From positions 1 to 64,000 of the forward strand of contig JAJDVB010000205.1 of the NCBI GenBank assembly GCA_022826345.1: a stretch of DNA of 64,000 nucleotides, in the 5' to 3' direction. Origin of the DNA: Alphaproteobacteria bacterium. GTDB lineage: Bacteria > Pseudomonadota > Alphaproteobacteria > UBA828. Both the position numbers and the translations under genes were made by a program. Below are positions 129 to 27,306 of this stretch, piece after piece (position 1 is the first letter of the stretch; every line of letters starts with the position of its first letter). The notes under the pieces are model-generated. The model searched no databases and was not told the DNA's origin. It saw only the letters and a list, made by a program, of their open reading frames with translations.

Positions 129-611
129 CCGAAGGGATTCACCTGGCGCCCGCGCCACGGCTCGCACACGAGCCAGACCGGACAGCTCACCTCCGCCGCC
201 ATCGACGCACGCGACTTCCGCCGCGCACGCAAGGACCGAGAGACCCGCGCGCACCTGCCCGAGGGCACCCTGGTCGCAATCACCGGCGGCAAGACCGTCA
301 GCGATGCCGACGCGGTCTGGAGCACGCTCGACATGGCGCGCGCGAAGTACGGCGACATGGTCCTGCTGCATGGTGGCGGTCCCGGCGTCGAGAAGGTCGC
401 CGCGAGCTGGGCCGAGGCCAGAGGCGTCAACCAGGTCGTCTGCCGCCCCGACTGGACCGCGCACGGCAAGGCCGCGCCCTTCCGCCGCAACGACGAGCTG
501 CTCAACTTCCTGCCCAAGGGCGTCATCGCCTTCCCCGGCAGCGGCATCACCGGCAACCTCGTCGACAAAGCCCGCTCGCTCGGCATACCTGTGATGACCG
601 TGGCCGCGTAA
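129..611 (+). pseudogene. DUF2493 (SLOG/YspA-type) protein, N-terminus missing
   Basis: The translation matches the C-terminal half of the DUF2493 family, a Rossmann-like SLOG domain thought to bind nucleotide-derived ligands and common on alphaproteobacterial plasmids and integrative elements. Visible family features are the WRPR...TGQLTSAAIDARDF entry segment, ITGGK, the glycine-rich LLHGGGPGVE loop, CRPDWTAHGKAAPFRRND and FPGSGITGN near the end. Full-length relatives, as I recall them, carry about 150 more residues in front. Here the same frame is closed by a TGA at 126-128, and the first in-frame ATG is at 333, inside the domain. The gene therefore looks truncated or disrupted. It could instead be expressed as a 92-residue protein from 333. 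Confidence 0.6.
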
Positions 612-2048: not shown

Positions 2049-2364
2049 GACCTGTTAATTTGGGCCGATCCTACGGCCAATAGTGCTCCCGACACCCTGG
2101 GAACGCGTCCCTTTTTCGGGTGACGATCGCAACCAGCTGATATACCGGTGTTAATCGCCGACGACACCAATTTGCGTCGCATGGCTCTTCCGCCAATGGG
2201 CCGGGCGAATGTTGAACGAGTTTCGCCGCATTGCGCGCGCCAATCGACAAGGGCGCGGCTATGATCGGCCCTGCAGGCCGTTCCGGCGGACGGTCCTCTT
2301 CCAAGTACCGCTGGTATGTTGCGGCGGTACGGCCCCGACTTGCAACGACCGACTGAGGATATCG

Positions 2365-2706
2365 ATGGGAACGCCACGCTTCCAGCGCTCGATCAGGTTC
2401 TCCCAATCGGAGTGGAACGCGATTTGCGAGGCGGCCGAACAGCGCCGGATGAAGCCCGCGGAGTTCGTCCGGGAGGCCGCAGCCGGCGTCGCGGCGCGCG
2501 AGATCGACCTCGACGACGGCAAGCTGACACCCGCGCTGGTGGAGATAATCGAGCGAACCTTTCGAGGCGTGCACCTGCTCGCCTACCTCAAGCACGAGGA
2601 GCTTGCCGCCCTGGGCAGACAAGAAGATTTTCGGCGGGCCACCGAGGCCGGCCAGATCGCGCAGGAGGAGACGCTCGGCCAAGATAACTCGAACGGCGAA
2701 GACTGA
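2365..2706 (+). CDS. Small ribbon-helix-helix-like DNA-binding protein
   Basis: A 113-residue protein. Its N-terminus (residues about 5-45) has the ribbon-helix-helix pattern: a short strand RFQRSIRFS followed by two helices, with SEWNAICEAAEQRRMKPAEFVREAA. The rest is acidic and helical. Such proteins on mobile elements act as relaxosome accessory factors (MobC-like) or as autoregulators. The ATG at 2365 is chosen over longer frames because GAGGA lies about eight bases upstream. The gene is a single unit, 460 bp from the defence operon that follows. Family assignment is by pattern only, and the exact role is unknown. Confidence 0.6.
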   Translation: MGTPRFQRSIRFSQSEWNAICEAAEQRRMKPAEFVREAAAGVAAREIDLDDGKLTPALVEIIERTFRGVHLLAYLKHEELAALGRQEDFRRATEAGQIAQEETLGQDNSNGED

Positions 2707-3166: not shown

Positions 3167-4588
3167 ATGAGCCAATCGGAGAGCGCGTCGCGGGAGACGC
3201 TGACCCGCCAGCAGCGCAACTTGGCGCTGACGGAGCCGATCGCCCGGCTGTCCCGCGACCGGCGGGTGATCTTCAAGGACGATCCTGCGTTGGCCGAGAG
3301 GCTCGACGTCCAGTACCTGGCGCTGAGCGCGATCGACTTCGTGATGGAGCGCTCAGCAATCGAGGCGGGCGCTCCGCCGGAAGATGTGGTCCAACACGTC
3401 GCCGGCGAGGCGGTGCGCATGAAGCCGGTGCTGACCGAGAAGCAGGCGCGCAAGGCCGGACAGGTGGTGCTTGACCACCTTTCCAATGCGCGCGAGGGCC
3501 ACAGGACCTTCCGTGTGGAGTACTACGACGCGGACCGGGGCGGCTTTTCCTTCCAGGATTTCCGTCTTCTGGCGCTTTCGGCCGCCGACGACGGGTCTCC
3601 GCGCTACAAGCTCGCACGGGGCGCGCAGACGCTGACGCTCGCGATGCTCGACATCGCGCCGGAGTTTGCGCAGGAGGCCGAGGCGATCATGATCCGCAAG
3701 GCGGTGGAGCGGGGCCGCTTCGAGGACGCGCGCACGCTGGCGCGGCGCTCGCGGATGCGCTCGATCCACTACCGGCAGTTCATCGAGGACCGGCTGTTCC
3801 AGGTGCGCCGCGCCGCCGACCGCGTCAGGTGGAGCGAGGAGGTGCTGCCGGAGCTGGACGAGGCGCGCGTACACCTGGGCGAGCGGCGCAAGCACGAGGC
3901 TGCGATCGTGGATTCGATCCGGGAACACATCGCGCACGCCGAAGGCGACACGCGCGATCATCTCGTCGATCTGAAGACGACGATCGACGACTGCCAGCAG
4001 CGCCACGCGGCATTGTTCGAGCGGGTGATGACGGCGTCGGAGGAGTTCCGGCAGTTGCAGGTGAGCGCATTCCGCGCACGCCTCGTGCGCGACGTTCCCG
4101 ACCTGGAGGACCGCATTCTCGGTCCGCTTCTGGCCGCGCCGATGGGAACGATCGCCGGCATGGGCGACAACATTGTCGCCGCCTTCGCCGCTCCGTCTCC
4201 GCCGCCGCTGCTCGATCTGGCGCTTCTGTTCGAGACCGCCACACAGCCGAGGTTCCGGCGCGACCCCGCCGGCGCGGAAGAGGAGCTCGATCTGGTGGCG
4301 ATCGAGCGGGTTCCGCCCGAGTTCGACGCCGAGGATATCCGCGCGGCGCAGGACTGGCTGGTGCGCACGATCGCGGCGCGCACGCGGCTGGACATGCGTT
4401 CGGCCGTCGGTTTCGCGGAAGACGAGGGCATGGCGGAGTCCACGCTGCGCTGCGTGCTGTTCCTGATGCTGCGTTCATGGTGCCCGGAGGACGATCCCTT
4501 GGGGGTTATCGCCTCCATCGACGGGGCGATCGCGCATGAGCGGGTGGCGGGCGACAACCTGGTGCTTGAGAGCGATACCGAACGATGA
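3167..4588 (+). CDS. jetA: Wadjet JetA-like kleisin subunit (DUF5716-like)
   Basis: A 473-residue protein, first gene of the four-gene SMC operon. In Wadjet, JetA is the kleisin that bridges the SMC heads and binds the KITE subunit JetB. The N-terminal 130 residues look winged-helix rich. A segment around residues 145-230 (YKLARGAQTLTLAMLDIAPE, then a helix-rich stretch with many arginines) resembles the 'L..TEEGY..L...lEID' region of type III JetA/DUF5716 proteins as I remember them. A coiled-coil-like region (about 225-310) and an acidic C-terminal domain follow. The ATG at 3167 is the first in a sensible place; the alternative TTG at 3134 lacks support. The stop overlaps the next start as ATGA. 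Assignment rests largely on context. Confidence 0.75.
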   Translation: MSQSESASRETLTRQQRNLALTEPIARLSRDRRVIFKDDPALAERLDVQYLALSAIDFVMERSAIEAGAPPEDVVQHVAGEAVRMKPVLTEKQARKAGQVVLDHLSNAREGHRTFRVEYYDADRGGFSFQDFRLLALSAADDGSPRYKLARGAQTLTLAMLDIAPEFAQEAEAIMIRKAVERGRFEDARTLARRSRMRSIHYRQFIEDRLFQVRRAADRVRWSEEVLPELDEARVHLGERRKHEAAIVDSIREHIAHAEGDTRDHLVDLKTTIDDCQQRHAALFERVMTASEEFRQLQVSAFRARLVRDVPDLEDRILGPLLAAPMGTIAGMGDNIVAAFAAPSPPPLLDLALLFETATQPRFRRDPAGAEEELDLVAIERVPPEFDAEDIRAAQDWLVRTIAARTRLDMRSAVGFAEDEGMAESTLRCVLFLMLRSWCPEDDPLGVIASIDGAIAHERVAGDNLVLESDTER

Positions 4589-5337
4589 CCGGCCTGACCC
4601 ATCTGAGCGAGGCCCAGAAGGCGGTCCTTCTCCTCAACAAGGGCCTCGCGCCGAGGGCGTCGGCGCTGCGGGGCGATACGGACTACCGCCAGCTGCTGGC
4701 GCACTGGCGCGCCGATCCCGAGTTCCGGACCCTGGTGCAGGAGCTCGCGCCCATGCTCGGCCTCCGGGTGGTCGACGCGCTGGAGCACGCGATCGTGCTC
4801 GCGCCGCAGAGTCCGGAGAGCGTTTTCGCCGCAACGCTGACGGATCTGCGCAAGGATCTAGGCGAGATGCCGCGCGGTGCGCTCGCGCTCATCCACGTGG
4901 CGATCGCGGCGACCTTCTTTCCGACTGCGGCGGTGCTGACGGGAATGCAGGAGGATCGAGCGGAAGTATCGGCGACGCCGGCGCGGATCGCGTCGCTGCT
5001 GCGCGAGCACTGCCGGCGCCTGGAAGAAGAGTCGGGCAGCGATCCCGAGCTGGAGGAGGCGGGCCTGGTGGATGCCTGGCGCGAACTCGCCCGCTTGCCG
5101 GAGACCCGGCCCGACGGCAGCCAGCGCGCAGGCCTGGGCTCGCTCGCCGGCATGGTCAAGCTGGTGCTCAACCAGCTTCACGAGCACGGGATGGTGCAGA
5201 CCCTGGAGACGGCCGACGGCGAGACCTACATGGCGACGCCGTGCTACCGGCTGCAGGTGCGCGAGCTCGCGGCGCACGAGCTGTTCGAGCGCTGCGCCTC
5301 GGTGCTGCCGGGTTTTCTCGACAGCGAGGGCCGGTGA
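4585..5337 (+). CDS. jetB: Wadjet JetB-like KITE subunit
   Basis: A 250-residue helical protein in the position and size range of JetB/MukE, the tandem winged-helix KITE subunit that binds the kleisin. The first helix is followed by a stretch of alternating helices, and the C-terminal third (about 180-240: LVLNQLHEHGMVQTLETAD, then TYMATPCYRLQVREL) has the look of a winged helix with a beta hairpin. It begins inside the stop codon of the preceding gene (ATGA), and its TGA directly abuts the ATG of the SMC gene, so the three are surely translated together. Sequence similarity alone would not identify it; the operon does. Confidence 0.72.
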   Translation: MTGLTHLSEAQKAVLLLNKGLAPRASALRGDTDYRQLLAHWRADPEFRTLVQELAPMLGLRVVDALEHAIVLAPQSPESVFAATLTDLRKDLGEMPRGALALIHVAIAATFFPTAAVLTGMQEDRAEVSATPARIASLLREHCRRLEEESGSDPELEEAGLVDAWRELARLPETRPDGSQRAGLGSLAGMVKLVLNQLHEHGMVQTLETADGETYMATPCYRLQVRELAAHELFERCASVLPGFLDSEGR

Positions 5338-8300
5338 ATGCGGTGCATCACGCGTATCCACCTCTCCGACTGCGGCTGGCACGAGGCGTACTATCCGGGA
5401 ACGACCGTCCATCTTGCCGACCCGCGCACGGGCGAGCCCGTGCACACGGTGTTCAGCCTGGAGAACACGGGGGGCAAGACGTCCTTCCTGTCCCTGGTTC
5501 TGAGCTGCTTCGACACCAGCGAGCGGCGCTTCCTGAAGACTCTGATCCGGGCGAACCAGAGGTTCGGCGACTACTTCGGGGAGGTGCCGGCGTTCATCCT
5601 GGTGGAGTGGGACCTCTCCGGCGGCCAGTCGGGCCTGCTGGAAGCTGAACGCCTGGTCACGGGCCAGGTGGTGGTGCCGCACGGCGAGGGCCGCCAGCGC
5701 GAGCTGGAGCGCCGCTTCTTCACGTTCCGGAGCGCGCCGGGCCTCTCTTTCGACGCCATCCCCGCGCCGGGGCTCGAAGGGTTCGAGGAGCACGGCCGCC
5801 TGAGAGGGCATCAGGACGTGCAGCGCTGGCTGCACGAGATGCGTTCAGGCCATCCCGGCAACTTCCAGGATTTTTCGAAGCAGTCGGACTGGAAGCGCAA
5901 GCTCGCCGAAGAGAAGATTGACACGGAGCTCCTGGCGGCGCAGGTGGAGTTCAACCGCAGCGAAGGCGGCATCGAGGACTTCCTCGATTTCCGGAGCGAG
6001 GCGCAGTTCCTGCGGAAGTTCCTGGCGATGACGGTGCCGGACGGGGAGGCCGGCGCGGTGCGGGGGCTGCTCGCCGAGCACGTGGCGAAGCTCTCGGACC
6101 TGCCGCGCCTGCAGCGGCGGCGGGACGCGATGCGCCGTCTTCAGGAAAAATTCGCGCCCTTCGTGGACATCGCCGCAGGAGCGCAGGCCGCGCAGGAGGA
6201 GGTTTCGCGGCGCAGCAGCGATGCGTCCTCCCTCAAGGCGGCGCTGGACGAGCACGCGGACCGGGCGTCGCGGCTTGCGGAACAGCGCGCCGGGACTGCG
6301 GAAGAGCACGAGACAGCCGCCGGCAAAGCCGAGGCGGCATGCGGGAGGGCGAGGATCGAGCTCGCCTCCGCCGCCGTCGAGACGGCGCGTCGCAGGCACG
6401 AGGCCGCCGAAGCGGCCGCCGTTGCCCGCGAGGAAGCTCGCGGACAGGCCCTCGGGCACAGCCGTCTTCTCCAGGGCGCCGTGTCGATGCGCGGCGTTCT
6501 CGACGACCGGGAGCGGAGCAGGGCGCTGCAGGAGGCGATCGACGCGGAGCATGCCGACCTGCAACCGCGCCGCGATGCGCTCTGCGCGATCGGCGCGGAT
6601 CTCGTTTCCACCCTCAACGGGCGCGCCGAGACGTTGCGGGAGCGCCAGCGCGCCCTGTCGACCGAAGCGCGGGAGCTGACGGCAGCAGCGCGCACGGCCG
6701 ACGCCGAACGGGCAGCGGCATCGGAGAGCGCGCAGATGGAACACAGGGAGGCGGCGCAGATCGACGTTAACCTGGGTCATGCGCGCGAATTCCGCGCCAA
6801 GCTCGAGGAAGGGCAGGTGCTTGAGGCCGGCGAGGGCGCCGATGCGGCGGCGCGGCGTCATGCGGAGGCTGCGCGGCTTGCCGAAGAAGAGGCTGCCGAG
6901 TTTCGCCGGCGCGCCGAGGAGGCGGACCTCACCGCCGCGCGGCACCGGGAGCGCCAGGGCGATCTCAGGGCCGAGGGCTCGGTTCTGGAGACCGAGGCGG
7001 CGCGGTTGCGGGAAGCCGCCCGCGAAGGTGAGGAGCGGCGCCGGGCCTTGGCCTTCGATCCAACCCTTCTCGAGCTCAGCGGCGAGAGCGAGGTCGACCC
7101 GGACGCCGACGCGGCGGGAAGGCTGCTGGCGGATGCCAGGAGCGGGTGCATGGCCAGATTGCGCGAGGAAGAGCGGCGCCAGGAGGTTCTGCAGGCCGAC
7201 CGCGAGTCGTTGGAGGCCACCGGCCTCGCGTCGATCGACGAGGACGTGCGCACCGTCGCCGGGCGGCTGCGCGACTCCGGCATCGCCGACGCCCAGCCCT
7301 ATGCCGTCTATCTTTCCGACATCCTGCGCTCGCCGGGAGAGGTCCGCCGCTTCGCCGAGCGCGACCCGGCCCGCTTCGTCGGCGTCGCCGTCCCCAACCG
7401 GAACGCTCTCGAAGCGGCGCGGCGGGCGCTGGAATCCGCCCCTCCGCTGAGCCGGCCAGTGACCGTCGCGATCGCCGGAGACACGCCGGGAGAGACCGAG
7501 GCGGACAGGTTCGTGCTTCCCGTGGACGAGCCTGCCGCCTACGACCGTGCCGCTGCCCGCGACCTGCACCGCCGGATCGAGAACGATCTGGCAGGTGTGG
7601 CATCGTCGATCGATGCGCAGCAGACGCGCATTGAGCACCTGGAGTCGATCTTTCGGGAGCTCGGGGCGTGGCGTGAACGCTTCGGCGGAGGTCGGCTCGA
7701 TGGAATGCGGCGCGACATCGAGCGCAAGGAAGCGCGGATTGCGGAGATCGCAGGCGAGATTGACGCGCTGTCCGACCGGATCGAGACCACCGGGCGCGAC
7801 GCCCGGGACTGCCGCGACAGGGCGGGCGAGTGCGACGGGCAGGCCCATGCGTCTGCCGAGCATGTGCGCCGCGCCGACGAGCACCACGCGCAATGGGGCT
7901 CACGCGTCGACGGCTGGCGCAAGGCACACCTCGCTCGCCGGCAGCGGGCGGCTTCGGCCGAGCGCCTCGCCAGGGAAAAGGAGGCAGAACGGGACGGCCA
8001 TACCAGGGAGGCCGGCGCCCGCGAGGACGAGGCAAGATACGCTGCAAGTATGGCTGCGGACATGGAGCGCGAGGCGGGCAGCGTCACCCATTCAGGACCC
8101 GGCGGACGGGCGGCCGGCGATCTCGACGCGTTGCGCGGCGCGTACGAACGCGAGCTCGAGGCGCTGACGGCCCTGGAGCAGGAACGGGTGGGCGAGCTGC
8201 GCGGCCAGCGCCTGGAGGTCGAGCGCTCCGTGGCCGGGAAGGAGGACCGTTTCGCGGAGGCGTTCAGCGATCTGGAGCGCGCCGTGGTCGAAGCCGAGGC

Positions 8301-9705
8301 GCTACGGGACGGCCTCCGGGAGGTCGCCGCCGGCGCGGAGGCGGCGCTCGAAGCGGCGCGCGAGGCTGCATCGGCCGCCCGCGCGGAGGCGGACGCCGCG
8401 CGAAGGGACCACCGCGCGGAGAAGGAAAGGCGCACACAGGAGGTCCGTCCCGGGCCGCTGACGGATATGCGTTCGCTCGCTCCGGAGGCGCTGGCCCGCA
8501 TCGTGCCCCGGGCGGAGGCGACAATTGTCGAGCAGGAAGCCATCGCCTCGCGCGAGGCGGATGCCGCGCGGCGGGCGCGCGACGAAGCGGCGCGGCACGG
8601 CCGGACGGCCGCGTCATGCACCGACCAGGCCGCCACCCTCGGCGGCGTCCTAGGCGCTGAACCCGCTCCGGCGGAACGGATGGAGCTCCCGCGCGAGGAT
8701 GAGGTGGCCGCTCTGGTCAGCGCCACCTTCGCCGCACTCGGACGGGCGCGCGACGCTCTGGGCGAGGCGCACAAGGCCGTCTACGAGAGCTACGACGATA
8801 TCCGCAGGTTCACCAACTCCGACGCGTTCAGGGAGCTGGAGAGCGAGCGGCAGGTCGCAGCCCACCTCGGCGCCAACGACCCACTCGCCGCGGCGGAGAA
8901 CGCGGAGAGGACGGCGGGCCTGATCGACGACCGCCTGAAGACCATCGAGCACGACCTCTCGCGTCTCGACGAAGACCTCGAGGCCTGCGTCGCTGAGCTG
9001 GAGCGCCTGCTTCGGACCGCCCTGCACATCCTCCGGCGCATGGTCCGCGACGGGCGCATCCCGGACCACGTGCCCCGCTTCGGGGGGCAGCCGGTGTTCC
9101 GCATGAGCGCCGACCTCTCGAGGGTCGCCGTCGATCAGCGCAGGGAGATCCTCCGCAGCTACGTGACCGACCTGGCGGAGGCCGACCGGATCCCGGAGAC
9201 CGGCCAGGACATCGCCTCCGAACTGGTCGAGCGCATGACTGCGGCGCTGGGCAGGGACTCTCTCGGCATCCGGCTGCTGAAGCCCAAGGGCGAGGGCGAC
9301 ACCGAGCACATGCCGATCGACCGGGTGAGCGTCTCGGGCGGCGAGCTGCTGACCGCCGCGATGATGATCTACCTGGTGTTGGCGCGGCTGCGAGCTGAGG
9401 CGATGCACGGCGGCGCGAGCGAAGGCGGCGTCCTCATCATGGACAACCCCCTGGGCAAGGCGAACAAGGCCCTGCTGCTGAAGACCCAGATCGGTCTCGC
9501 GGACGCCATGGGGATCCAACTCTTCTACACCACCGGAGTGCAGGACACGAACGCGCTGGCCGAGTTCGAGAACATCGTGCGGCTGCGGCGCATCGGCCAG
9601 TCTCGGGACTCGCGCCGCATCCACGTGGAGGTCGAGGCCATGCGCGCCCATATCCACAGGCGGGCGACCGAAGACACCGTAAGATCGGCCGTGGCCGCCG
9701 AGTAG
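5338..9705 (+). CDS. jetC: Wadjet JetC-like SMC ATPase
   Basis: A 1455-residue SMC/MukB-like motor subunit. An N-terminal ATP-binding half has Walker A ENTGGKTS at residues 42-49. It is followed by long Ala/Glu/Arg-rich coiled coil (about 270-600 and 780-1200) around a more globular centre (about 590-780) that may include the hinge. The C-terminal half has the signature SVSGGE (1331-1336) and Walker B VLIMDNPLG, in which Asp1369 is followed by Asn1370 rather than the usual catalytic Glu. An MDNPF-type motif is what I remember for type III JetC proteins. In Wadjet this subunit drives loop extrusion on circular DNA. It starts immediately after the jetB stop and ends one base before jetD. Confidence 0.85.
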   Translation: MRCITRIHLSDCGWHEAYYPGTTVHLADPRTGEPVHTVFSLENTGGKTSFLSLVLSCFDTSERRFLKTLIRANQRFGDYFGEVPAFILVEWDLSGGQSGLLEAERLVTGQVVVPHGEGRQRELERRFFTFRSAPGLSFDAIPAPGLEGFEEHGRLRGHQDVQRWLHEMRSGHPGNFQDFSKQSDWKRKLAEEKIDTELLAAQVEFNRSEGGIEDFLDFRSEAQFLRKFLAMTVPDGEAGAVRGLLAEHVAKLSDLPRLQRRRDAMRRLQEKFAPFVDIAAGAQAAQEEVSRRSSDASSLKAALDEHADRASRLAEQRAGTAEEHETAAGKAEAACGRARIELASAAVETARRRHEAAEAAAVAREEARGQALGHSRLLQGAVSMRGVLDDRERSRALQEAIDAEHADLQPRRDALCAIGADLVSTLNGRAETLRERQRALSTEARELTAAARTADAERAAASESAQMEHREAAQIDVNLGHAREFRAKLEEGQVLEAGEGADAAARRHAEAARLAEEEAAEFRRRAEEADLTAARHRERQGDLRAEGSVLETEAARLREAAREGEERRRALAFDPTLLELSGESEVDPDADAAGRLLADARSGCMARLREEERRQEVLQADRESLEATGLASIDEDVRTVAGRLRDSGIADAQPYAVYLSDILRSPGEVRRFAERDPARFVGVAVPNRNALEAARRALESAPPLSRPVTVAIAGDTPGETEADRFVLPVDEPAAYDRAAARDLHRRIENDLAGVASSIDAQQTRIEHLESIFRELGAWRERFGGGRLDGMRRDIERKEARIAEIAGEIDALSDRIETTGRDARDCRDRAGECDGQAHASAEHVRRADEHHAQWGSRVDGWRKAHLARRQRAASAERLAREKEAERDGHTREAGAREDEARYAASMAADMEREAGSVTHSGPGGRAAGDLDALRGAYERELEALTALEQERVGELRGQRLEVERSVAGKEDRFAEAFSDLERAVVEAEALRDGLREVAAGAEAALEAAREAASAARAEADAARRDHRAEKERRTQEVRPGPLTDMRSLAPEALARIVPRAEATIVEQEAIASREADAARRARDEAARHGRTAASCTDQAATLGGVLGAEPAPAERMELPREDEVAALVSATFAALGRARDALGEAHKAVYESYDDIRRFTNSDAFRELESERQVAAHLGANDPLAAAENAERTAGLIDDRLKTIEHDLSRLDEDLEACVAELERLLRTALHILRRMVRDGRIPDHVPRFGGQPVFRMSADLSRVAVDQRREILRSYVTDLAEADRIPETGQDIASELVERMTAALGRDSLGIRLLKPKGEGDTEHMPIDRVSVSGGELLTAAMMIYLVLARLRAEAMHGGASEGGVLIMDNPLGKANKALLLKTQIGLADAMGIQLFYTTGVQDTNALAEFENIVRLRRIGQSRDSRRIHVEVEAMRAHIHRRATEDTVRSAVAAE

Positions 9706-9706
9706 C

Positions 9707-10741
9707 ATGGCCTCGTTCGAGGACGAGTTGCGCGCCCTGGGCAAGCGGCGGATCGGCCTGCCCAAGCTGCGCGCCGCCTGGCTCCGCGCCCATCCCGAAG
9801 TCCGCGACCAGCCCGAGCAGAGGCGCATGCTCCTCGACGCCCTGCGAGGCCTGGAGCGCGAGGGGACGATCGATCTCCCCGCACGGGGATGGGACACTTC
9901 GGGCTCTCCCGCGCTTCCGCGCACGGCCAGCCTCCGGGATGCGGCGCAGAACCGGCGCACCCGGACGCCTCAAGCCTGGCTGCCGGCCCTGGCCTTTGCC
10001 GCCGACGAGGGCCACCCCGTGCGGCGCGCCGACCTTCAGGCCGTCAACGCGTTCCTGCTGTCCATGCGCGGCAGGGAGCCCGTGCCGGCGCCGACGAGGG
10101 AACGCTCGCTGCAGATATTCGGGGACGAGAAGCGGCTCGACGACCTGCGCAAGGGCGAGCCCGCCCTGTTCGAAGGACGCGTCACGCTGGCCGATCTCCA
10201 CTGCTATCCCGTCGCGCCGCCGCTGCCGCACGAATCGCCACCCGAACGGGTGCCGGGGCGGCCGGTCCTGGTGCTGGAGAACTATCACTCCTGGGACAGC
10301 TTCTGCCGGTGGAACCGGGAAGCTGCGCTCTATGCGGCCATCGCCTACGGCGGCGGCAACGCCTTTCGGCAGGGCGCCGGCAACCTCGACGACTTGATCG
10401 TCTGGACGCAGGCGAAGGGCGCCATGTACCTCGGCGACCTCGATCCAGCCGGCGCCCGGATACTGATCGGGGTCAACCGGCGGCGGCAGTCGGAGGGGCG
10501 GTCGGTTCTGAGCCCGCATCGCGGCCTCTATCGCTGGCTGCTCGACCACGGCCGCCGGTGTCCCCTGGAGCGGACAGCGGAGAATGCGGAGGTCGACGGT
10601 CTGGTCGACGTGTTTCCCGCCGACCTCGCGAGGGCGCTGGTGGGGCTCTGGTCTGCGGGGCAGCGCATTCCGCAGGAGAGCTTTGGCATCCAGCAGTTGT
10701 CGGGAGCCGAAGCGGACTTCGCCGCGCCTGATGCCGGCTGA
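9707..10741 (+). CDS. jetD: Wadjet JetD-like TOPRIM nuclease subunit
   Basis: A 344-residue protein matching the JetD/DUF3322-DUF2220 layout. A winged-helix-like N-terminal domain (about 1-60, with the GLPKLRAAWLRAHPEV segment) leads to a C-terminal TOPRIM domain. The TOPRIM acidic residues are visible as VLVLENYHSW (Glu191) and YLGDLDPAG (Asp244, Asp246), and a late IPQESF resembles the conserved Gln-Glu of the family. In characterised Wadjet systems JetD cleaves the plasmid DNA that the SMC complex has looped. The start is one base after the jetC stop. All the acidic residues I would expect are present, so it is probably active. Confidence 0.85.
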   Translation: MASFEDELRALGKRRIGLPKLRAAWLRAHPEVRDQPEQRRMLLDALRGLEREGTIDLPARGWDTSGSPALPRTASLRDAAQNRRTRTPQAWLPALAFAADEGHPVRRADLQAVNAFLLSMRGREPVPAPTRERSLQIFGDEKRLDDLRKGEPALFEGRVTLADLHCYPVAPPLPHESPPERVPGRPVLVLENYHSWDSFCRWNREAALYAAIAYGGGNAFRQGAGNLDDLIVWTQAKGAMYLGDLDPAGARILIGVNRRRQSEGRSVLSPHRGLYRWLLDHGRRCPLERTAENAEVDGLVDVFPADLARALVGLWSAGQRIPQESFGIQQLSGAEADFAAPDAG

Positions 10742-11028: not shown

Positions 11029-12160
11029 ATGGCGAACAGAACGAAGATCACGATGGCGGGCGCGCGCGCCTTCGCAGCCGCGGACGGTCGCGAGGCCGTG
11101 CTGTGAGACAGCGCGGCGCCGGGCCTCGGACTGCGGGCGCGAGCGAACGGACGCAAGACGTGGATCGTGCACCGGCGCTGCAACGGCTCGGTCGTCAAGC
11201 GGACGCTCGGCGCGTTCGACGCGCTGACGGTCGAGGACGCACGGCACGCGGCGCGGGCGTTGCTCGCCGATGCCAAAACGGGCAGCGCGGCGGCGGCGGT
11301 CCCGACGGTGCAGGCGTTCGCGCCGGCGTTCCTCGCCGACTGCGCCGAACGGTGGAAGCCCTCGACGCGGAGAAGCTACGCGCATACCGTGCGGCGCTGG
11401 ATACTGCCTGCGTTCGCCAACCGCCCGGTCGATGCGATCGGCGCGAAGGACGTGCGCAACTGGCACGACGACATCTCGGCAACGTGCCCCGGCTCGGCGC
11501 ACTGGGCGTTGGCCGCGATGTCGTCGATGATGAAGCACGCGGAGGCTCTCGGCCTGCGGCGCGAGGACTCCAACCCGTGCAAGGGACTGCGGCGGCGCAA
11601 GACCGGCTTCGAGGCGCACTACCTGATGGACGACGAGTTTGCCGCGCTCGGTCGGTCGCTCGACTGCGCGGAAGCGGATCATCCGGTCGCCATCGCCGTG
11701 GTGCGCTTCCTTCTCTACACCGGCGCGCGCAAGTCCGAGGCGCTGCGCCTCAAGTGGTAGCACGCTCACGACGACCGCGCGGTGTTGCCCGACTCAAAAA
11801 CTGGTCCCCGCACGATCTGGCTGGCGTCACCGGCCCCCGCCGTGCTCGCGGCGCGGCAACGGCGCACCAACTGTCCGTGGGTGTTCGCGTCGCCCTGCGG
11901 CGGTGGACAGGGAATGGAACGCGATCCGCGCGGCGGCGGGACTGCCGACGCTGCGCATTCACGATCTCCGGCATTCGCTCGCGGCGGTCGCGGTCAACGG
12001 CGGCGAGGGCCTGCGCGTCGTTGCCGGGCTGCTCGGCCATGCCGACATCAAGACCACCTTCGGCTACGCGCACCTTGCCGAGGGTTCCGTGTTCGATGCC
12101 GCCAACCGGGTCTCGCGCGGCCTTGCCGACATGCTCGACGGCAGGGAGGCGGGCCGATGA
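11029..12160 (+). pseudogene. Tyrosine recombinase (phage-type integrase), disrupted copy 1
   Basis: Read through its lesions, this is a full tyrosine recombinase: an arm-binding N-terminus (APGLGLRARANGRKTWIVHRR), a SAM-like core-binding domain and a catalytic domain with TGARKSEALRLKW (Arg I), HDLRHS (His-x-x-Arg) and LLGHADIKTTFGYAH (His and the Tyr nucleophile). It is interrupted by an in-frame TGA at 11104 and an in-frame TAG at 11758. A frameshift near 11905 moves the reading frame before WNAIRAAAGLP. Three independent lesions make it a dead gene unless the organism or sequence is unusual. Its end overlaps the start of the second recombinase as ATGA. Confidence 0.85.
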
Positions 12161-13325
12161 CCGAGCGCGCCCGCCTGACCGATGCGCTCGCACTCGCGGC
12201 CCGGCCGCGCGAGCGCGAATACGCCATCCACGACGCCGCCCTGCAGGGCTTCATGCTGCGCGTCCAGCCCACAACGGCGCGCGATCCTGGGTGTTTCGGT
12301 TCCAGCGCAACGGCAGGCCGCGCCGCGTCACGCTCGGCAAGCCGGACGCGGTGAAGGCCGACCAGGCGCGGGCCGCGGCGCTCGCCTTCCTCGCCCGCGA
12401 GAAGGGCGGCGGGAGTCCCGCGCCCCTTCCCGCTTCCGGCCCAACGCTGACGAAGTTCGCCGCCGAATACGTCGAGCGGCGCTCGCTGTCGTGGAAGCCG
12501 TCCACGGTGAAGGCGACCCGGAGCTACCTCAACAGCGCCATCCTGCCCGCGCTCGGCCATCTGCGCGTCGGCTCGGTCGTGCGGGCCGACGTCGCGCGCT
12601 TCTTCCACGAGTACGGACGCAGAAAGCCGGGCGGCGCGAATCGCAGTCATGACATACTGCGCACTATGTTCGACTGCGCCATCGCGTGGGGCCATCGCCC
12701 CGAAGCCGCCGGGAACCCGTGCACCGGCATCGTCCGCTACCGGCGACCGCTGCGCGGGCGGCTGCTCGGCGCGGACGACCTTGCGAAGCTCGGCGCGGTC
12801 CTGCGCCAGCGCGAAGCGGATAACCCGGTCTGCGTCGCGGCGGTGCGCCTGCTCCTGCTGACGGGATGCAGGCCGGGCGAGATACGCCGCATGCGCTGGC
12901 GCGAGGTCAAGCCGGACCGGCTCGCGCTGATTGACGCGAAGACCGGACCGAGGCACGTTCTGCTTGGTGAGGCGGTGCGGGAGCTGCTGAACCGTCTCGC
13001 CGAAACGGCGTCCGGGGAGTGGGTGTTTCCGGGCGGCAAGGGGGACGGGCCGTTGAGCACGAACGACCTGTGGACGTTCTGGACCGGGGTGCGCGACAAG
13101 GCGGGGATCGTGGCGGATGCACGATTGCATGACCTGCGCCACGCGCACGCCTCGCACGCGGTCATGAACGGCGAAAGCCTGCATGTCGCGGGACGCCTGC
13201 TCGGACATCGGCGGGCCAGCGAGACGAATCGCTACGTCCATCTCGACGATGCGACCCTGAGCCAAGCTGCCAAGCGGGTGGCGGAGGCGGTGGAGCGGAA
13301 GCTGCATGGGCTGGAACAGCTATGA
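12157..13325 (+). pseudogene. Tyrosine recombinase, frameshifted copy 2
   Basis: A second tyrosine recombinase whose ATG sits inside the stop of the first. The start frame gives MTERARLTDALALAARP...FMLRVQP, then the family sequence continues in another frame (NGARSWVFRFQRNG onwards), so a frameshift lies near 12272-12285. The remainder is intact: TGCRPGEIRRMRW, HDLRHAHASH and LLGHRRASETNRYVH hold the catalytic Arg, His, Arg, His and Tyr. Only one lesion is visible, so a sequencing error is possible here, unlike in copy 1. The two overlapping genes suggest that both recombinases once acted together. Confidence 0.75.
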
Positions 13326-14101
13326 TAGTGTCAACTAACGATGCTCAATCGCCATTGGAAAACGACAGAGTGATGCAGGAAGGCACCACGGCACACCATC
13401 CCGACCTTGCGGACTCGGAAAAACGTCGGGTGCAAAACGGCGAAGCCACCAATGATCTTGTGTTCAGTGCAAGCACGGATGGCAACGACCGCGTGTTTCC
13501 TCGCATTCTCGGCCTTTACGTAAAGCCGGGAAGCGTGGTCGCTGACGTAACTTTCGGTAAGGGCGTGTTTTGGCGGCGCGTGCCTTGCGACAAGTACAAG
13601 CTATTGGCTACCGACATTCAAGACGGTACCGACTGTCGCAAACTTCCGTATGAGGACGGAGTGATCGACTGCGTTGTCTTCGATCCACCCTACATGCATT
13701 CGCCCGGCGGAACGGCCCATGAGGTTCATACTCCATTTGAAGACCACTACCGGAACAACCGCACTGGCAATCGGACAAGGAGCAAGTATCACGAGGCAGT
13801 ATTGGATTTGTACCGAGACGGTGGACGCGAGGCCCACCGGGTTCTAAGGGAGCGCGGTGTATTGATCGTCAAGTGTCAAGACGAAGTATGTTCTAACCGT
13901 CAGCGGTTTACCCACATAGAGATAATGCAGATATACGAGAAGATCGGTTTTGTCGCTGAAGACCTATTTGTCGTGATGCGCAACAATCGTCCAGGTGTGA
14001 GCCGTGCCGTTCGGCAGGTACATGCGCGCAAGAACCATTCCTACTTTCTAGTGTTCTGGAAAAAGGATGGAACGAAACGGCGTTGGGAACCCCCGAAATG
14101 A
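13322..14101 (+). CDS. DNA (adenine-N6 or cytosine-N4) methyltransferase, restriction-modification type
   Basis: A 259-residue SAM-dependent DNA methyltransferase. The SAM-binding motif is VADVTFGKGVFW (residues about 73-84), followed by the acidic LATDIQDG, and the catalytic motif is DPPY at residues 121-124. DPPY marks amino-methyltransferases acting on adenine N6 or cytosine N4. The ATG at 13322 overlaps the preceding recombinase stop as ATGA; a downstream ATG at 13373 is a possible alternative. Base composition drops sharply towards 50% GC exactly here, a sign of separate acquisition. Its stop overlaps the start of an endonuclease-like gene, so the pair looks like a type II restriction-modification unit. 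The recognition site cannot be read from the sequence. Confidence 0.8.
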   Translation: MIVSTNDAQSPLENDRVMQEGTTAHHPDLADSEKRRVQNGEATNDLVFSASTDGNDRVFPRILGLYVKPGSVVADVTFGKGVFWRRVPCDKYKLLATDIQDGTDCRKLPYEDGVIDCVVFDPPYMHSPGGTAHEVHTPFEDHYRNNRTGNRTRSKYHEAVLDLYRDGGREAHRVLRERGVLIVKCQDEVCSNRQRFTHIEIMQIYEKIGFVAEDLFVVMRNNRPGVSRAVRQVHARKNHSYFLVFWKKDGTKRRWEPPK

Positions 14102-14592
14102 ATCCCGTTGAACTTCTGGTGGAGGTCATCAGGGAGCACATGCCCGAAGACATATGGCAAGACTCGCCGCTCATGGGCTACCGTTTGCTTGGCAACACAA
14201 ATAGGGGCGAGATTGGAGAGGAGTTCATCCGTAGGTACCTACAAGCCGCTGGGATAGACGTTGGTAACGGCGGGCGAACATCTGCAACAGACATGACAAT
14301 CGCCAAGCGTAGCTTCGAAGTGAAGACGGCGTCTTTAGGTTCAAACGGAACCTTCCAGTTCAATCACGTACGCTTAGATCGTCGTTACGACTATCTGCTT
14401 TGCCTCGGCATATGTCCGCACAGAATCGTATTCAATATGTGGCGCAAAGGCGAAGTGGCGGAGGAACGTGCCGGAAGGCTCGTCAGAATGGCGGAAGGTC
14501 AGGCCGTCACCTACAAGATCACGAAAAGGTTGGCCGATATGGAAGACATCGAAGGGTTGCTCGGCGTGTTGCACGAGACATTGGGCATTTGA
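14098..14592 (+). CDS. PD-(D/E)XK endonuclease-like protein, partner of the methyltransferase
   Basis: A 164-residue protein with a clear PD-(D/E)XK nuclease core. An N-terminal helix carries GEIGEEFIRRYLQAAG (the upstream Glu), then ATDMTI gives Asp65 and SFEVKTAS gives Glu74-Val-Lys76. The size, the motif and the ATGA overlap with the methyltransferase stop (TGA 14099-14101) point to the restriction endonuclease of a type II system. I prefer the ATG at 14098 to the TTG at 14083 for that reason. I do not recognise the family closely, and a Holliday-resolvase-like or repair role is not excluded. GC content matches the methyltransferase and not the host. Confidence 0.7.
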   Translation: MNPVELLVEVIREHMPEDIWQDSPLMGYRLLGNTNRGEIGEEFIRRYLQAAGIDVGNGGRTSATDMTIAKRSFEVKTASLGSNGTFQFNHVRLDRRYDYLLCLGICPHRIVFNMWRKGEVAEERAGRLVRMAEGQAVTYKITKRLADMEDIEGLLGVLHETLGI

Positions 14593-15997: not shown

Positions 15998-18900
15998 TCA
16001 CAGTTCCAGTTCGAGCTCGTATTCGATCGTCTTGGGCCCGCGCTCCTTCACCGGCTCTGGAGCCTTCGCAGGTTCAGGTGCCCGCGCGGGCTTGGGTGCC
16101 GGAGCGGGCGGCTGCTCCCTTTCTGGTGTCGGCGTTCTCGCGGGCGTGGGCCGTCGTGTCCTTTCCGGCTCGTGGGCCGGTGCCTCGGGTCGGGATTCTG
16201 GTACCCGGTTCCTGGCGGGCGCAGGCGCCGTCGTCCTCCCGGGCTGTCGAGTCGGTGACTCCGGCCTTGCCTCCGTCCCCGGACTCCTTGCAGTTGCGGG
16301 CGGACGCATCGTCGCGGGTTCGCCGGCCAGCCCGTCCCGCTCGATCTCCCTTTCCCTGCTCGTGGCCGCTTCACGTGCCTGCGCCTGCCTGGCCTGCTCC
16401 GTCCTCCTCGCCAGTTCCGCCGCAGCGGCGACGCCCTCTAGCGCCGACATGCGCTCCCCGGTCGCGGCCTCCAGGCGGTCGCACAGCGCCTTCGCGTCGT
16501 CCGTCACCAGCTCCGCCCGGTGCCGCGCACGGCTGATCTCCACGTAGAAGCTCTTCTGTGTGGTCAGGTGAGGGTGATTGGCCTCCATCACCGCGATCAC
16601 GTTGTCCACCGTGCGACCCTGGAACGCATGCACCGTCGATGCCCAGGCATGATCGAGATGGCGCAACTGCGGGTCGTGACGACCCAGATCCAGCTTGCAG
16701 CCGTCCTCAAGCAGGAACGAGACCCGGTCGCCCCGCACCGCCGTCACCTCGGCCGCGTGGCTGTTCACCAGCCCGAGCCTGGCATCGTTGCGGGTCCAGC
16801 GGATGCGGTCGCCCGCCCGAAGTTCTATCGGCTCGCTCCGGTATACCTCCACCGCGCCGCGGCTCGCTCCTACCTGGCGCGGGCGCCAGGGCACAGCCTC
16901 GCCGTCCGCGCCTTCCAGCATGACAATGCCGCGCGCACCGTCGACCTCGCGCACCCGGCGCTCCTCGCCTTTCTCCACGCCGAGGCTCTTGTAGGCCCGG
17001 TGGAAGGCCACCACGTCGCCCTGCGCGTAGTTGGCGGCCTGCATCTTTTCGGCCGCGGTGTAGCCGCGCGACACCAGCCGCTCGCCCTCCAGGGCCGGGC
17101 CGTGGATGACGCCGTCACGGGCGAGGCGCTCGCGGATGTGGCCGTTGACGGTCTGGCGCAGCTCATGGCTCGGCGCCATCAGTCCGGTGTTCTCCCGCTC
17201 CTCAAGCGAGAGCTTCAACCATCGAGCGGCCGCAGCACCGGCGAGATTGTCGGGCTTCACCTCCGCGACACGGTCGCCTAGCCTGTCGAACGCGGCACGG
17301 ACGTCGCCCGCCAGGCTGGCCCGCACCGCCTCCTTCAGCGCCGGGTCCTTCTGCCGCAGGATATCGTCCATCACCACGGTCTTCATGCCCGCTTGCTGAA
17401 GCTGCGCGAAGGGCTTGCCCGCATCCACGGCGTCGAGCTGCTTCTCGTCGCCCACCAGCACCACCCTCGGGATCCTGAGCCTGTCGGCGATCCGCAGCAG
17501 GTCACGGGCCTGGACGGTGGATGCCAGAGAGCCCTCGTCCACCACCAGCACCGTCTTGCGGAAGGCGGCCCGCATCTCGCGCTCGCCCCTGGCCGTCAGC
17601 CGCCCCTCGGCCACGCCTGCGTTGCGCGCCAGGAACCGCTGCAGGGTCTCGCTCCGGATGCCGGCCTCTGCTGCCAGCGTCGCCGTCGCAGACGCCGAGG
17701 GCGCCAGGCCGATCATCCGGTAGCCGCTCTTCTCCGCGAGCGAACGCGCGCGGTCCAGCATCGCGGTCTTGCCGGTGCCGGCATAACCCTGCACGCCCAC
17801 CACCCGGTCCTTCGAGGACAGGATCGTGGTTACCGCGTCCTTCTGGCCCTCCGTCAGGCGGCCGTTGTGCAGCAGCGGCTTTGCGATCCAGCGCCGCATC
17901 ACGGGCTTCGACCTGCCTTGCCCGCGCTGCATGAGCCTGATGGTCTCGGTCTCGTCAATGAGGGCCTTCTCGGTGGTGAGCGCATCGCCGAGCACCGGCG
18001 TCCTCGCGGCGTGCAGAGTACCGGCCTTCTCCAACCGCTCCACCGCTGCCTCGGCCTCGCCGATGGTGACCTTGCCGGGTTTCCAGGCAAGAGTAGCGGT
18101 GAGCAGGTCGGAGCGGGCGAACACGGCTTCGCGCTCCGAGAGATGCGCCACCGCCCAAGCGGCCGCGCGGTCCGCATCGCTTGTCCTGCCGGGCTCGGCC
18201 TCACGGTCGTGGCCGGCAAAAGGTAAGGAGCGCTCCCGATGCGCTGCCTGCCAGTGCCGGGCCTCGTCCACGAGGTTCCGTGCGTCGAAGCCCAGATCGG
18301 CGGCCTGCCTCTGCCACGTGTCCCGCAGCGCCTCCTTGTCCACGTCGCGCTTGTGCGAGCGGGTCATCAGCGCCGCGCGCTCGGCGACCCGCTGGTTGCT
18401 TGCCGGCTCGCCCTGCCCCCGCGCCTCCATCGCCGCCTCGATTTCCGCGCGGCGCGTGGAGAAGGCATCGATCACCGGCCGCGCAACACCTGCGATCTCG
18501 AAGCGCCCGTCGGCGTGCGTCTTCTCGACCGCGTAGCCGAGCTCCTCCAGACCCCGTGCCAGCTCCGCACGGTAGAGCGCGCCGATCAGCATCTTGGACG
18601 CATAGAGCTTCTCGTTCGCCATCGTGCGCCACTTGCCGGACCGGGGCGTTCCCCTGTCGCCGCCCTGCACCATGTTGGCGATCACCGCGTGCGTATGCAG
18701 CTGTGGGTCCAGGTTGCGGGACGTGTCGTGCCGGAACGTGGCTGCCACGATCGACTGATCGCCGGCGCGCACCATGCGCCCGAGCTCGGGGTCCATCATC
18801 CTGGTCTCGGCCGCGTTGGCCTCGATCCAGGCCAGTGCCTCGCGCACGGCGGCATCGTGGACGCCCACGATCCGTTCGTCGCCGCCGACCAGCGCCGCCA

Positions 18901-19195
18901 GCGACACGGACTTCGGCGCAGAGAAGGTGAGGTCCCTGCCGGGGCGGTGCTCGATCTCACCCTCCCTGTTCCTGCGGCCGAGCCTTGTGCCAGAACCGTC
19001 GGGGACTTCGCCTGCGAGGATGCCGGTGAAGACGTCGGGATCGACGGTGCCCTCCAGGCCCAGCGCCTCCGCTCCCTTGCCGAACCAGGCGCTGGCCTGC
19101 CGGTGGGCGGGATCGTCCTTCGCGTAGTACCCGTCTCTTTCATAGTAGGAGACGCCCTGCGCGGGCGAGGCGACGGCGCCGACGGAGACCACCAT
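15998..19195 (-). CDS. MobF-family conjugative relaxase/helicase (TraI/TrwC-like)
   Basis: A 1065-residue relaxase that would nick the transfer origin, stay bound to the strand and unwind it. The N-terminal relaxase domain (about 1-290) has the tyrosine clusters SYYERDGYY (17-24), RDLTFSAPKSVS and the metal-binding histidine motif LDPQLHTHAVIAN. The helicase domain has Walker A GVQGYAGTGKT (about residues 460-470), Walker B VVDEGSLAS, a GDEKQLDAVD motif and the late AWASTVHAFQGRT and YVEISRARHRAEL motifs of RecD/TraI helicases. The last 170 residues are low-complexity Pro/Ala/Arg/Glu. Its ATG shares one base with the stop of the coupling protein gene. No type IV secretion genes are nearby. 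Confidence 0.92.
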   Translation of the reverse strand: MVVSVGAVASPAQGVSYYERDGYYAKDDPAHRQASAWFGKGAEALGLEGTVDPDVFTGILAGEVPDGSGTRLGRRNREGEIEHRPGRDLTFSAPKSVSLAALVGGDERIVGVHDAAVREALAWIEANAAETRMMDPELGRMVRAGDQSIVAATFRHDTSRNLDPQLHTHAVIANMVQGGDRGTPRSGKWRTMANEKLYASKMLIGALYRAELARGLEELGYAVEKTHADGRFEIAGVARPVIDAFSTRRAEIEAAMEARGQGEPASNQRVAERAALMTRSHKRDVDKEALRDTWQRQAADLGFDARNLVDEARHWQAAHRERSLPFAGHDREAEPGRTSDADRAAAWAVAHLSEREAVFARSDLLTATLAWKPGKVTIGEAEAAVERLEKAGTLHAARTPVLGDALTTEKALIDETETIRLMQRGQGRSKPVMRRWIAKPLLHNGRLTEGQKDAVTTILSSKDRVVGVQGYAGTGKTAMLDRARSLAEKSGYRMIGLAPSASATATLAAEAGIRSETLQRFLARNAGVAEGRLTARGEREMRAAFRKTVLVVDEGSLASTVQARDLLRIADRLRIPRVVLVGDEKQLDAVDAGKPFAQLQQAGMKTVVMDDILRQKDPALKEAVRASLAGDVRAAFDRLGDRVAEVKPDNLAGAAAARWLKLSLEERENTGLMAPSHELRQTVNGHIRERLARDGVIHGPALEGERLVSRGYTAAEKMQAANYAQGDVVAFHRAYKSLGVEKGEERRVREVDGARGIVMLEGADGEAVPWRPRQVGASRGAVEVYRSEPIELRAGDRIRWTRNDARLGLVNSHAAEVTAVRGDRVSFLLEDGCKLDLGRHDPQLRHLDHAWASTVHAFQGRTVDNVIAVMEANHPHLTTQKSFYVEISRARHRAELVTDDAKALCDRLEAATGERMSALEGVAAAAELARRTEQARQAQAREAATSREREIERDGLAGEPATMRPPATARSPGTEARPESPTRQPGRTTAPAPARNRVPESRPEAPAHEPERTRRPTPARTPTPEREQPPAPAPKPARAPEPAKAPEPVKERGPKTIEYELELEL

Positions 19196-23892: not shown

Positions 23893-25062
23893 CTAACCTG
23901 CGACCTCGGCGATCCTGCTCGCGATCCGGTTGGCGGCCGCCTTCACGGGGTCGTTGGCCAGGTGCGCATAGCGCGAGGTCGTCGTCACCCTGTTGTGCCC
24001 AAGGAGCTTGCCGATCATCGGAAGCCCTTCACCGACCAGCAGGCCGCCACTGGCAAAGGAATGCCTGAGGTCGTGGATTCGCAGATTCTCGATCCCGGCC
24101 CGGTCGAGAATGCGGCGCCACGAGTCGTGCAGGTAGGCGATATGCTTGCCACCCCTGATGCCCGGCAACACCCACGGACTGCCGTCTGCGCGCGGGATGC
24201 CCCGCAGCACTGCGATCGCCGGATCGCCCAGGTGCACCACCTTCGATCCGGTCTTGCTCTCCGGCAACCTGAGCTCGCCTGCCTCAAGATCGACGTGCTC
24301 CCACCGAAGGCTCATGATCTCCCCGCTCCGGCACCCGGTCAGCATCAGCAAGCGTATCGCGGCGATCGCCACCGGGGAGACGAAGCCCTCATCCTCCGCG
24401 TCCCGCAGCGCGGCGCCGAGGCGGCGGTACTCGTCGTCCGAGAGAAACCGCTCGCGCTTGTGCTCCGGATACTTCTTGACGTGCCGGCACGGATTGACGC
24501 CCTCGGGCCGCATCTCCCAGACCTCGGCGAGGGTCAGCATGCGCGAGAGCACGCTCAGCGTCCGGTTGGCATGGCCGGGGACGTCGCGCATCTCGTGGTG
24601 AAGAGCGGCGACGTCGTTCTTGCCGAGATTGCCGACCCGGCGCTTACCAAGCCGGGGAAGGATGCGGTTGTCGATGATCTTGCGGTAGAGCCGCGCGGTG
24701 CCGGGCTTCAGATGGGCAGGGGCGTACTCGTCCATGAAGCGCTTGGCGAGGTCCGCCACGGTGGCGCCCTTCTTGCCACGAGGGATCTTCCCTTCGAGAT
24801 CGCGGCCTGTCTTCGCGAGGGTGACGATTTCTGCTGCCTTTGCCCGCGCGGCGGCAGGAGTGATGGGGCCGTGGGGTCCGATGGTGTCTTTGACGGATCG
24901 CCCCTCGTGTCGATACTTGACGATGTAGACCTTTCGCCCGGTGGGATGGACGCGGACACCGAAGCCCGTGATTGCGTCGTCCCAGAGGATGCGTTCCCGC
25001 TCTGCTGGGACGAGTGCGTCGACGGTTCTCTTGGTGATTTTGGGCAAGGCGGTTTTCCTCAT
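23893..25062 (-). CDS. Intact tyrosine recombinase (integrase) of the element
   Basis: A 389-residue integrase of the P4/ICE type. It has an N-terminal arm-binding region (ALPKITKRTVDAL, ITGFGVRVHPTGRKVYIVKYRHEG), a core-binding SAM-like domain (about 95-185) and a catalytic domain with all key residues: TGCRSGEIMSLRWEHVD (Arg), HDLRHSFAS (His and Arg), LLGHNRVTTTSRYAHL (His and the Tyr nucleophile). I chose the ATG at 25062 (MRKTALPKI) because it matches the usual N-terminus; an upstream ATG at 25134 would add an unconvincing leader. It marks the right-hand end of the island and faces inward, as in many integrative elements. Confidence 0.9.
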   Translation of the reverse strand: MRKTALPKITKRTVDALVPAERERILWDDAITGFGVRVHPTGRKVYIVKYRHEGRSVKDTIGPHGPITPAAARAKAAEIVTLAKTGRDLEGKIPRGKKGATVADLAKRFMDEYAPAHLKPGTARLYRKIIDNRILPRLGKRRVGNLGKNDVAALHHEMRDVPGHANRTLSVLSRMLTLAEVWEMRPEGVNPCRHVKKYPEHKRERFLSDDEYRRLGAALRDAEDEGFVSPVAIAAIRLLMLTGCRSGEIMSLRWEHVDLEAGELRLPESKTGSKVVHLGDPAIAVLRGIPRADGSPWVLPGIRGGKHIAYLHDSWRRILDRAGIENLRIHDLRHSFASGGLLVGEGLPMIGKLLGHNRVTTTSRYAHLANDPVKAAANRIASRIAEVAG

Positions 25063-25318
25063 CGTCCTATCCGGGTACCGGATAGGCACTTCCAGGGAAC
25101 GAACCGAAGCATATGATAGCGTGCTTCCGTCCACAAGAGAATTTTCCTAATATTCTGACATTATGGCATTATCGTATCTCACCGTATCTCTCTCGCCTCC
25201 TGCCTCCGATATCTCAATACTATGGTGCGGTGCACAGGGGGCGTTGAGGTCGCAATGATCGGGGCATGATGAACGCCCGATACTCCGCCCCTCTTCCCAT
25301 CCATGAGAGCTTTACCTG

Positions 25319-26560: not shown

Positions 26561-26568
26561 GGGGAGAG

Positions 26569-26663
26569 CGCCGGGCCGAACTCAAGCCTCCGCGCATTCC
26601 AGCAAGAGAGCCTTGGCCTCGACGGACTGGCCCGCCGCCACGTGCAGGGCCGCGACGGTCCCC
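26569..26663 (-). pseudogene. Duplicated 3' end of the pyruvate carboxylase gene
   Basis: This 95-bp stretch is a diverged copy of 27293-27387. On the minus strand it encodes GTVAALHVAAGQSVEAK, then ALLLECAEA and a stop, against GTVAALHVAAGQSVEAK and DLLLEYAEA at the real end of pyruvate carboxylase. The similarity continues past the stop codon. The toxin-antitoxin module lies between the two copies, so this is either the displaced original tail or one arm of an attachment-site-like duplication. Confidence 0.85.
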
Positions 26664-27277: not shown

Positions 27278-27306
27278 ACGTCAAGCCCCATGGCGCCGGG
27301 CTGAGC

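Follow-up and report, generated by a model that had tools for sequence, protein, structure and literature searches.

A complete type III Wadjet operon beside mobilization genes in an alphaproteobacterial contig, with asparagine in the Walker B motif of its SMC subunit

How does the SMC motor of a type III Wadjet system work with an asparagine in place of the Walker B glutamate, and must mobile elements that carry Wadjet have a shape or size that Wadjet spares? Both questions are raised by a four-gene operon, jetABCD, in the window analyzed here, a stretch of 64,000 nucleotides from an Alphaproteobacteria bacterium (contig JAJDVB010000205.1, 101,822 bases long). The locus adds a well-preserved type III Wadjet adjoining mobilization genes, and we regard the Walker B asparagine of JetC as its most interesting feature.

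RESULTS

Gene content and type of the operon

Translations of the open reading frames gave a complete four-gene set on the plus strand, from position 3167 to position 10741.

3167..4588, plus strand: jetA, 473 aa, kleisin-like subunit
4585..5337, plus strand: jetB, 250 aa, KITE-like subunit
5338..9705, plus strand: jetC, 1455 aa, SMC-like ATPase (PADLOC JetC3, PDLC00578)
9707..10741, plus strand: jetD, 344 aa, TOPRIM nuclease (PADLOC JetD3, PDLC00594)

An earlier note on this DNA had described the four reading frames as tightly coupled, and the coordinates and junctions bear this out: jetA and jetB overlap in an ATGA, jetC follows jetB without a gap, and a single base separates jetC from jetD. 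The motifs that it had listed (ENTGGKTS, SVSGGE, MDNPLG, ENYHSW, and GDLDPAG) are all present in the translations; in JetC, the Walker A motif reads ENTGGKT, the signature motif SVSGGE, and the Walker B motif MDNP. Codon-position GC content is gene-like in all four genes, with GC3 values of 0.87 to 0.89. The ATG at 3167 was taken as the start of jetA, and an alternative upstream TTG at 3134 is likewise open. A scan of positions 2650 to 11200 detected no sigma-70 promoter and found six terminator-like sites, all of them within jet genes.

The best PADLOC match of every subunit was a Wadjet type III model (the set PDLC00569, 00573, 00578, and 00594), as the earlier note had predicted: JetA3 for JetA (1.2e-95), JetB3 for JetB, a weak match (7.1e-6), JetC3 for JetC (2.2e-221), and JetD3 for JetD (4.5e-74). 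Pfam added only JetD_C for JetD (22.8 bits against a cutoff of 22); DUF6063 fell below the cutoff for JetB (17.7 versus 27 bits). A suggested likeness of JetA to DUF5716 did not show up in the Pfam results for JetA, which held just an insignificant match to Ferritin (E, 0.12).

Predicted structures placed JetA closest to MukF, a kleisin fold, and JetB closest to MukE and to the JetB chains of Escherichia coli and PA14, a KITE fold, in agreement with the subunit roles originally proposed. For JetA, Foldseek ranked chain E of the E. coli JetABC complex (9qxt) third (E, 0.13); the VIA list contained no Wadjet chain, an uninformative absence, and PDB sequence searches with JetD, JetC, and JetA returned no meaningful match. 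The TOPRIM acids of JetD (E191, D244, D246, and E324) are kept in 15 of 15 aligned JetD proteins, a set made up of 12 type III and 3 type I sequences. According to the excerpted text of PMC10123090, the substitutions E236A and D279A drastically impair the MksG nuclease. Judged by profile matches and predicted folds, jetABCD is confirmed as a complete Wadjet type III operon.

An asparagine at Walker B in type III JetC

Walker B reads Asp-Asn-Pro in all 12 of the diverse type III JetC proteins compared, which span Bacillota, Actinomycetota, and Pseudomonadota (five from the clade of the window protein, and others from Pseudomonas, Polaromonas, Rhodococcus, Streptomyces, E. coli, Microvirga, and Pontibacillus). 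In contrast, it reads Asp-Glu-Ala in the type I (L037) and type II (L030) proteins compared, one sequence of each, in a cross-type alignment that is loose. Two other acids, E90 and E209, are shared by all 12 type III proteins and missing at those columns in L037 and L030. In a wider set of 128 JetC rows, asparagine occupies the position in 119 of the 121 rows with a letter there, and the two exceptions are frame-shifted tails. Because closely related sequences make up most of the rows, the 119 do not count as independent cases. None of the 118 rows with a letter at the first glycine of the P-loop keeps it; the residue there is L, M, or A.

These replacements and the two invariant acids favor an alternative in which type III works unlike types I and II: JetC would hydrolyze ATP very slowly or with another carboxylate, for which E90 and E209 are candidates, and, instead of being a fast extruder, might sense circles as an ATP-locked clamp or switch. 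We consider this possible but on the whole unlikely. In its favor, excerpts of the review PMC10586767 state that a Glu-to-Gln change at Walker B of LmuB, from Lamassu, suggests low or no hydrolysis and that substitutions of this glutamate drastically slow diverse ABC ATPases. The same excerpts state that, in the systems tested, cleavage by JetABCD depends on a working JetC ATPase. Against the alternative, other residues substitute for the Walker B glutamate in some ATPases. Plasmid protection by a type III Wadjet system, reportedly seen by Doron et al. in 2018, would show activity, not mechanism. Only tentatively do we propose that the SMC motor of type III Wadjet is a naturally occurring variant at Walker B, which would sense plasmids without the usual ATP cycle of SMC proteins or by means of a relocated catalytic acid such as E90 or E209. 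The excerpted texts of PMC8565338, PMC12287153, PMC10586767, PMC12647877, PMC10123090, PMC12375680, and PMC10482375 do not mention the type III Walker B motif, and we do not claim that it is unpublished.

Genomic setting

The operon is flanked by the following features.

135..602, plus strand: fragment of a SLOG-family (YAcAr) gene (in tblastn, 91% to the L006 protein and 94% to the L009 protein over 156 aa)
2209..2706, plus strand: NikA-like mobilization accessory gene preceding jetA (Pfam NikA-like match under the cutoff, 21.9 versus 27 bits; E, 2e-4)
11029..13325, plus strand: pair of tyrosine-integrase genes in tandem, neither confined to a single frame, the first from about 11029 and the second from about 12157
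13322..14592, plus strand: low-GC restriction-modification-like pair, a methyltransferase (N6_N4_Mtase, 4.1e-9) and a type II endonuclease-like gene (PADLOC REase_II, 9.1e-16)
15998..19195, minus strand: TrwC-type relaxase-helicase (Pfam TrwC, 1.2e-84; AAA_30, 1.6e-48)
19195..21414, minus strand: TrwB/TraD-type coupling protein (Pfam TrwB_AAD_bind, 5.3e-130)
23893..25134, minus strand: tyrosine integrase with an intact open frame (Pfam Phage_integrase, 8.1e-20; Arm-DNA-bind_3, 2.5e-11)
26568..26662 and 27293..27387, no strand: copies of a 95-nt att-like direct repeat (87%), the second overlapping the 3' end of a pyruvate carboxylase gene

Two related loci, L006 and L009, share the upstream backbone of NikA-like and SLOG genes. 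Their proteins matching 135..602 are YAcAr in Pfam, their NikA-like relatives upstream of jetA are 90% (L006) and 86% (L009) identical over about 120 residues, and stretches of backbone DNA are 76 to 91% identical. The backbone is absent from L003, L004, L007, L008, L012, and L013, each with 7.8 kb of upstream sequence, and was seen in no locus but L006 and L009, with L001, L002, L005, and L010 too short to judge. On the 3' side of jetD, homology to L010 and L001 stops within about 50 bases.

Both integrase genes next to jetD were recognized by frame analysis, the second also by Pfam (Phage_integrase, 2.2e-22). A 790-aa open reading frame over the same region (10953 to 13325) was considered as an integrase with a new N-terminal domain and rejected, since its first half is a wrong-frame reading over the two broken genes. 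Further downstream, a Mu-type portal gene accompanies the intact integrase, followed by metabolic genes.

The claim that the operon sits on an integrative element holds in part. The relaxase, the coupling protein, the NikA-like gene, and the integrases, one of them intact, speak for it; no att pair bounding jetABCD was found, nor was a left end within the 64,000-nucleotide window. The two att-like copies start only 725 bases apart and so may bound a small insert and not the element. Among the 29 window proteins scanned, which are fewer than the open reading frames listed, no type IV secretion gene other than that for the coupling protein was recognized, and the element may extend to the left. 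Because no pair of ends was found, an integrative element is only probable, and we conclude that jetABCD is probably carried by a mobile element. The excerpted text of PMC12375680 reports type IV CRISPR-Cas and type I Wadjet on integrative and conjugative elements (ICEs), so Wadjet on an ICE is not new.

The two broken integrases adjoining jetD could instead mark the operon as a decaying passenger, a relic on a dying element that no longer protects. This we judge very unlikely: the four jet frames are open and their motifs intact, and operon parts in L001, L006, L009, and L010 show 80 to 96% protein identity (L006, L009, and L010 end at contig edges).

Relatives, distribution, and transfer

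A protein search that scored only the 7,990 candidates sharing the most words with the query found 269 JetC homologues at an E value of ≤1e-3, the full-length ones being up to 89% identical among the 120 listed. These relatives do not fit the divergent outlier that the earlier note had seen here, and on the same grounds we rejected a divergent type III clade confined to the host. A genome scan gave 14 loci, in metagenome-assembled genomes of Alphaproteobacteria, Gammaproteobacteria, and Gemmatimonadota and in three Pseudomonas genomes. All four jet genes were matched over most of their length in eight (L001 to L004, L007, L008, L012, and L013), and the other six (L005, L006, L009, L010, L011, and L014) were partial, several of them ending at contig edges. 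Kin of the window protein's own clade comprise those in the metagenome-assembled genomes and one under an Acidobacteria name (P0086). This spread over several phyla lends no support to the expectation that type III belongs mainly to Firmicutes. More distant type III JetC proteins came from Pseudomonas, Polaromonas, Rhodococcus, E. coli, Streptomyces, Microvirga, and Pontibacillus, counted as type III by their match to the JetC or JetD of the window; the one typed with PADLOC was a Pseudomonas genome (G005).

Type III Wadjet is rare in the genomes sampled. PDLC00578 matched 1 of 299 genomes of the phylum, that of the window itself, and JetC matched 2 of 27 and 1 of 14 genomes in two orders, with the same genome counted each time. 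Such a patchy distribution bears on whether jetABCD is a chromosome-maintenance complex of the MksBEF kind and not a defense system, as the resemblance of its kleisin- and KITE-like parts to MukF and MukE might suggest. That reading is extremely improbable, given also that the operon includes a JetD whose TOPRIM motif is intact, that type III defense models match best, and that some relatives adjoin other defense genes.

In a tree of 26 rows, whose deep part is unsure because of long branches, the alphaproteobacterial L002 pairs with the gammaproteobacterial L004 (100/100), and L005, from Gemmatimonadota, groups with P0086, named Acidobacteria, and P0084 (100/100). These pairings suggest horizontal transfer between classes and phyla. 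Pattern scans of viral contigs found no relative of JetD or JetC, and phage records held no relative of type II JetC.

Wadjet genes on plasmids

The earlier note had also argued that a mobile Wadjet carrier needs to avoid its own circular form. When JetC or JetD queries from each of the three types were run in tblastn against 72,556 plasmid records, at least 47 Wadjet records emerged (11 of type III, 16 of type I, and 20 of type II, by query). The figure is a lower bound because one or a few query seeds stood for each type, and it keeps partial matches and chromosome-sized records. Their median size was 691,576 bases, and 5 of the 47 were smaller than 100 kb.

Rhodococcus: 77 kb, linear
Streptomyces dangxiongensis: 73 kb, linear, jetC appears broken in the annotation
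Sphaerotilus: 60 kb, linear in its record, which may be an unclosed contig
Stenotrophomonas: 42 kb, circular, broken jetC, with dnaK/grpE/dnaJ-like housekeeping genes (read from partial translations)
Tsukamurella: 22 kb, circular, broken jetC, with the housekeeping genes trpAB

The Stenotrophomonas and Tsukamurella records look like pieces of chromosome. Topology was read for 11 of the 47 records, including all five small ones, and for 12 small control records. The latter came from HsdR, for which 12 of 60 sampled rows (of 1,292 records) were below 100 kb, all 12 circular and 7 of them covering at least 80% of HsdR. Wadjet and HsdR did not differ when any match below 100 kb was counted (5/47 versus 12/60; Fisher P = 0.29) and differed when only circular records were (2/47 versus 12/60; P = 0.02). 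Dropping the two circular Wadjet records as broken, post hoc, gave 0/47 versus 12/60 (P = 0.001), an unfair test since the control rows were not screened for breakage likewise; restricting the control side to ≥80% coverage gave 0/47 versus 7/60 (P = 0.02). With matches to at least 80% of a query required on both sides, the contrast was 1/23 versus 7/34 (P = 0.13; 23 and 34 counted by hand). The rows are not independent, because Klebsiella dominates the control, with many of the plasmids nearly identical, and Streptomyces is frequent among the Wadjet carriers. For type I JetD, one model had matches in 25 of the phylum's 249 genomes (three of the matches weak) and one query in 10 of the 72,556 plasmid records, a comparison between differing methods.

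Overall, the survey fits the rule that Wadjet spares linear DNA and large circles, a size and shape rule for its targets given in the excerpted text of PMC10586767. This support for self-avoidance is only suggestive: the controls are weak, taxon bias could explain much of the pattern, and significance is lost when only near-full-length matches count.

DISCUSSION

The best explanation, and one that we consider highly likely, is that jetABCD is a working type III Wadjet that spreads with mobilization genes; the analysis shows which genes it contains, its type, the folds likely for its subunits, and the motif of its nuclease. By analogy with type I, the kleisin JetA, the KITE protein JetB, and the SMC protein JetC would together make up a motor for the uptake of circular DNA, and a small circle, once fully taken up, would be presented to the TOPRIM nuclease of JetD and cut. 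We infer both loop extrusion and cutting by the window system from work on type I. The operon most likely spreads with the adjoining mobilization genes, a mobility suggested by its neighbors, and a mobile element would thereby shield its host against other mobile elements. The element itself would be safe while integrated and, once excised, only if its circle were short-lived or reached a size of some 100 kb or above.

Among known systems, Wadjet type III is the match to the window operon in gene order, sizes, the four best models, and the Walker and TOPRIM motifs. Nothing was found that separates the operon from its own clade, and its JetB scores weakly. With type I (E. coli GF4-3, Pseudomonas aeruginosa PA14, and MksBEFG of Corynebacterium glutamicum) it has the four parts and the JetD acids in common and a similar JetB fold; the type I example L037, however, has a JetC of 1129 aa with D-E at Walker B, compared with 1455 aa and D-N here. 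The comparison with type II (TIGR02680 JetC) concerns JetC alone, which is SMC-like in both, and the type II example L030 carries GNNGTGKS and LLLDEAF, unlike the window protein. In the excerpted text of PMC12647877, three Wadjet types are named and the complexes used are Wadjet-I of E. coli and nvJET, which we take from its reference list to be the type II system of N. vireti. LmuB of Lamassu, as described in the excerpts of PMC10586767, likewise lacks the Walker B glutamate, with a glutamine there, and its description as Rad50-like and small sets it apart from the JetC of the window.

Neighborhood of the Wadjet operon

Two features of the window lie beside integrase or relaxase genes:

13322-14592, low-GC pair of a methyltransferase and a type II endonuclease-like gene, flanked by the two broken tyrosine-integrase genes and the TrwC-type relaxase gene
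25319-26560, Mu-type portal gene (3.7e-88), adjoining the intact tyrosine integrase

The methyltransferase/endonuclease-like pair is possibly a second defense module. No further phage genes were recognized among the scanned neighbors of the portal gene. At positions 1069-1763, a sequence of about 285 bases is present twice (copies 70% identical; spacing, 414), and this region can be aligned to L006, a genome locus with relatives of the window's jet genes.

Wadjet relatives elsewhere

Defense-like genes, SngA-like (Shango) and encoding a Ppl-like protein, adjoin the Wadjet relatives at two other such loci (L002, 9795-11465; L003, 3341-6196). In the plasmid survey, NZ_CP090424.1 (Stenotrophomonas) and NZ_LR134444.1 (Tsukamurella), both deposited as circular plasmids, each carry a broken Wadjet and housekeeping genes; they look like chromosome pieces.
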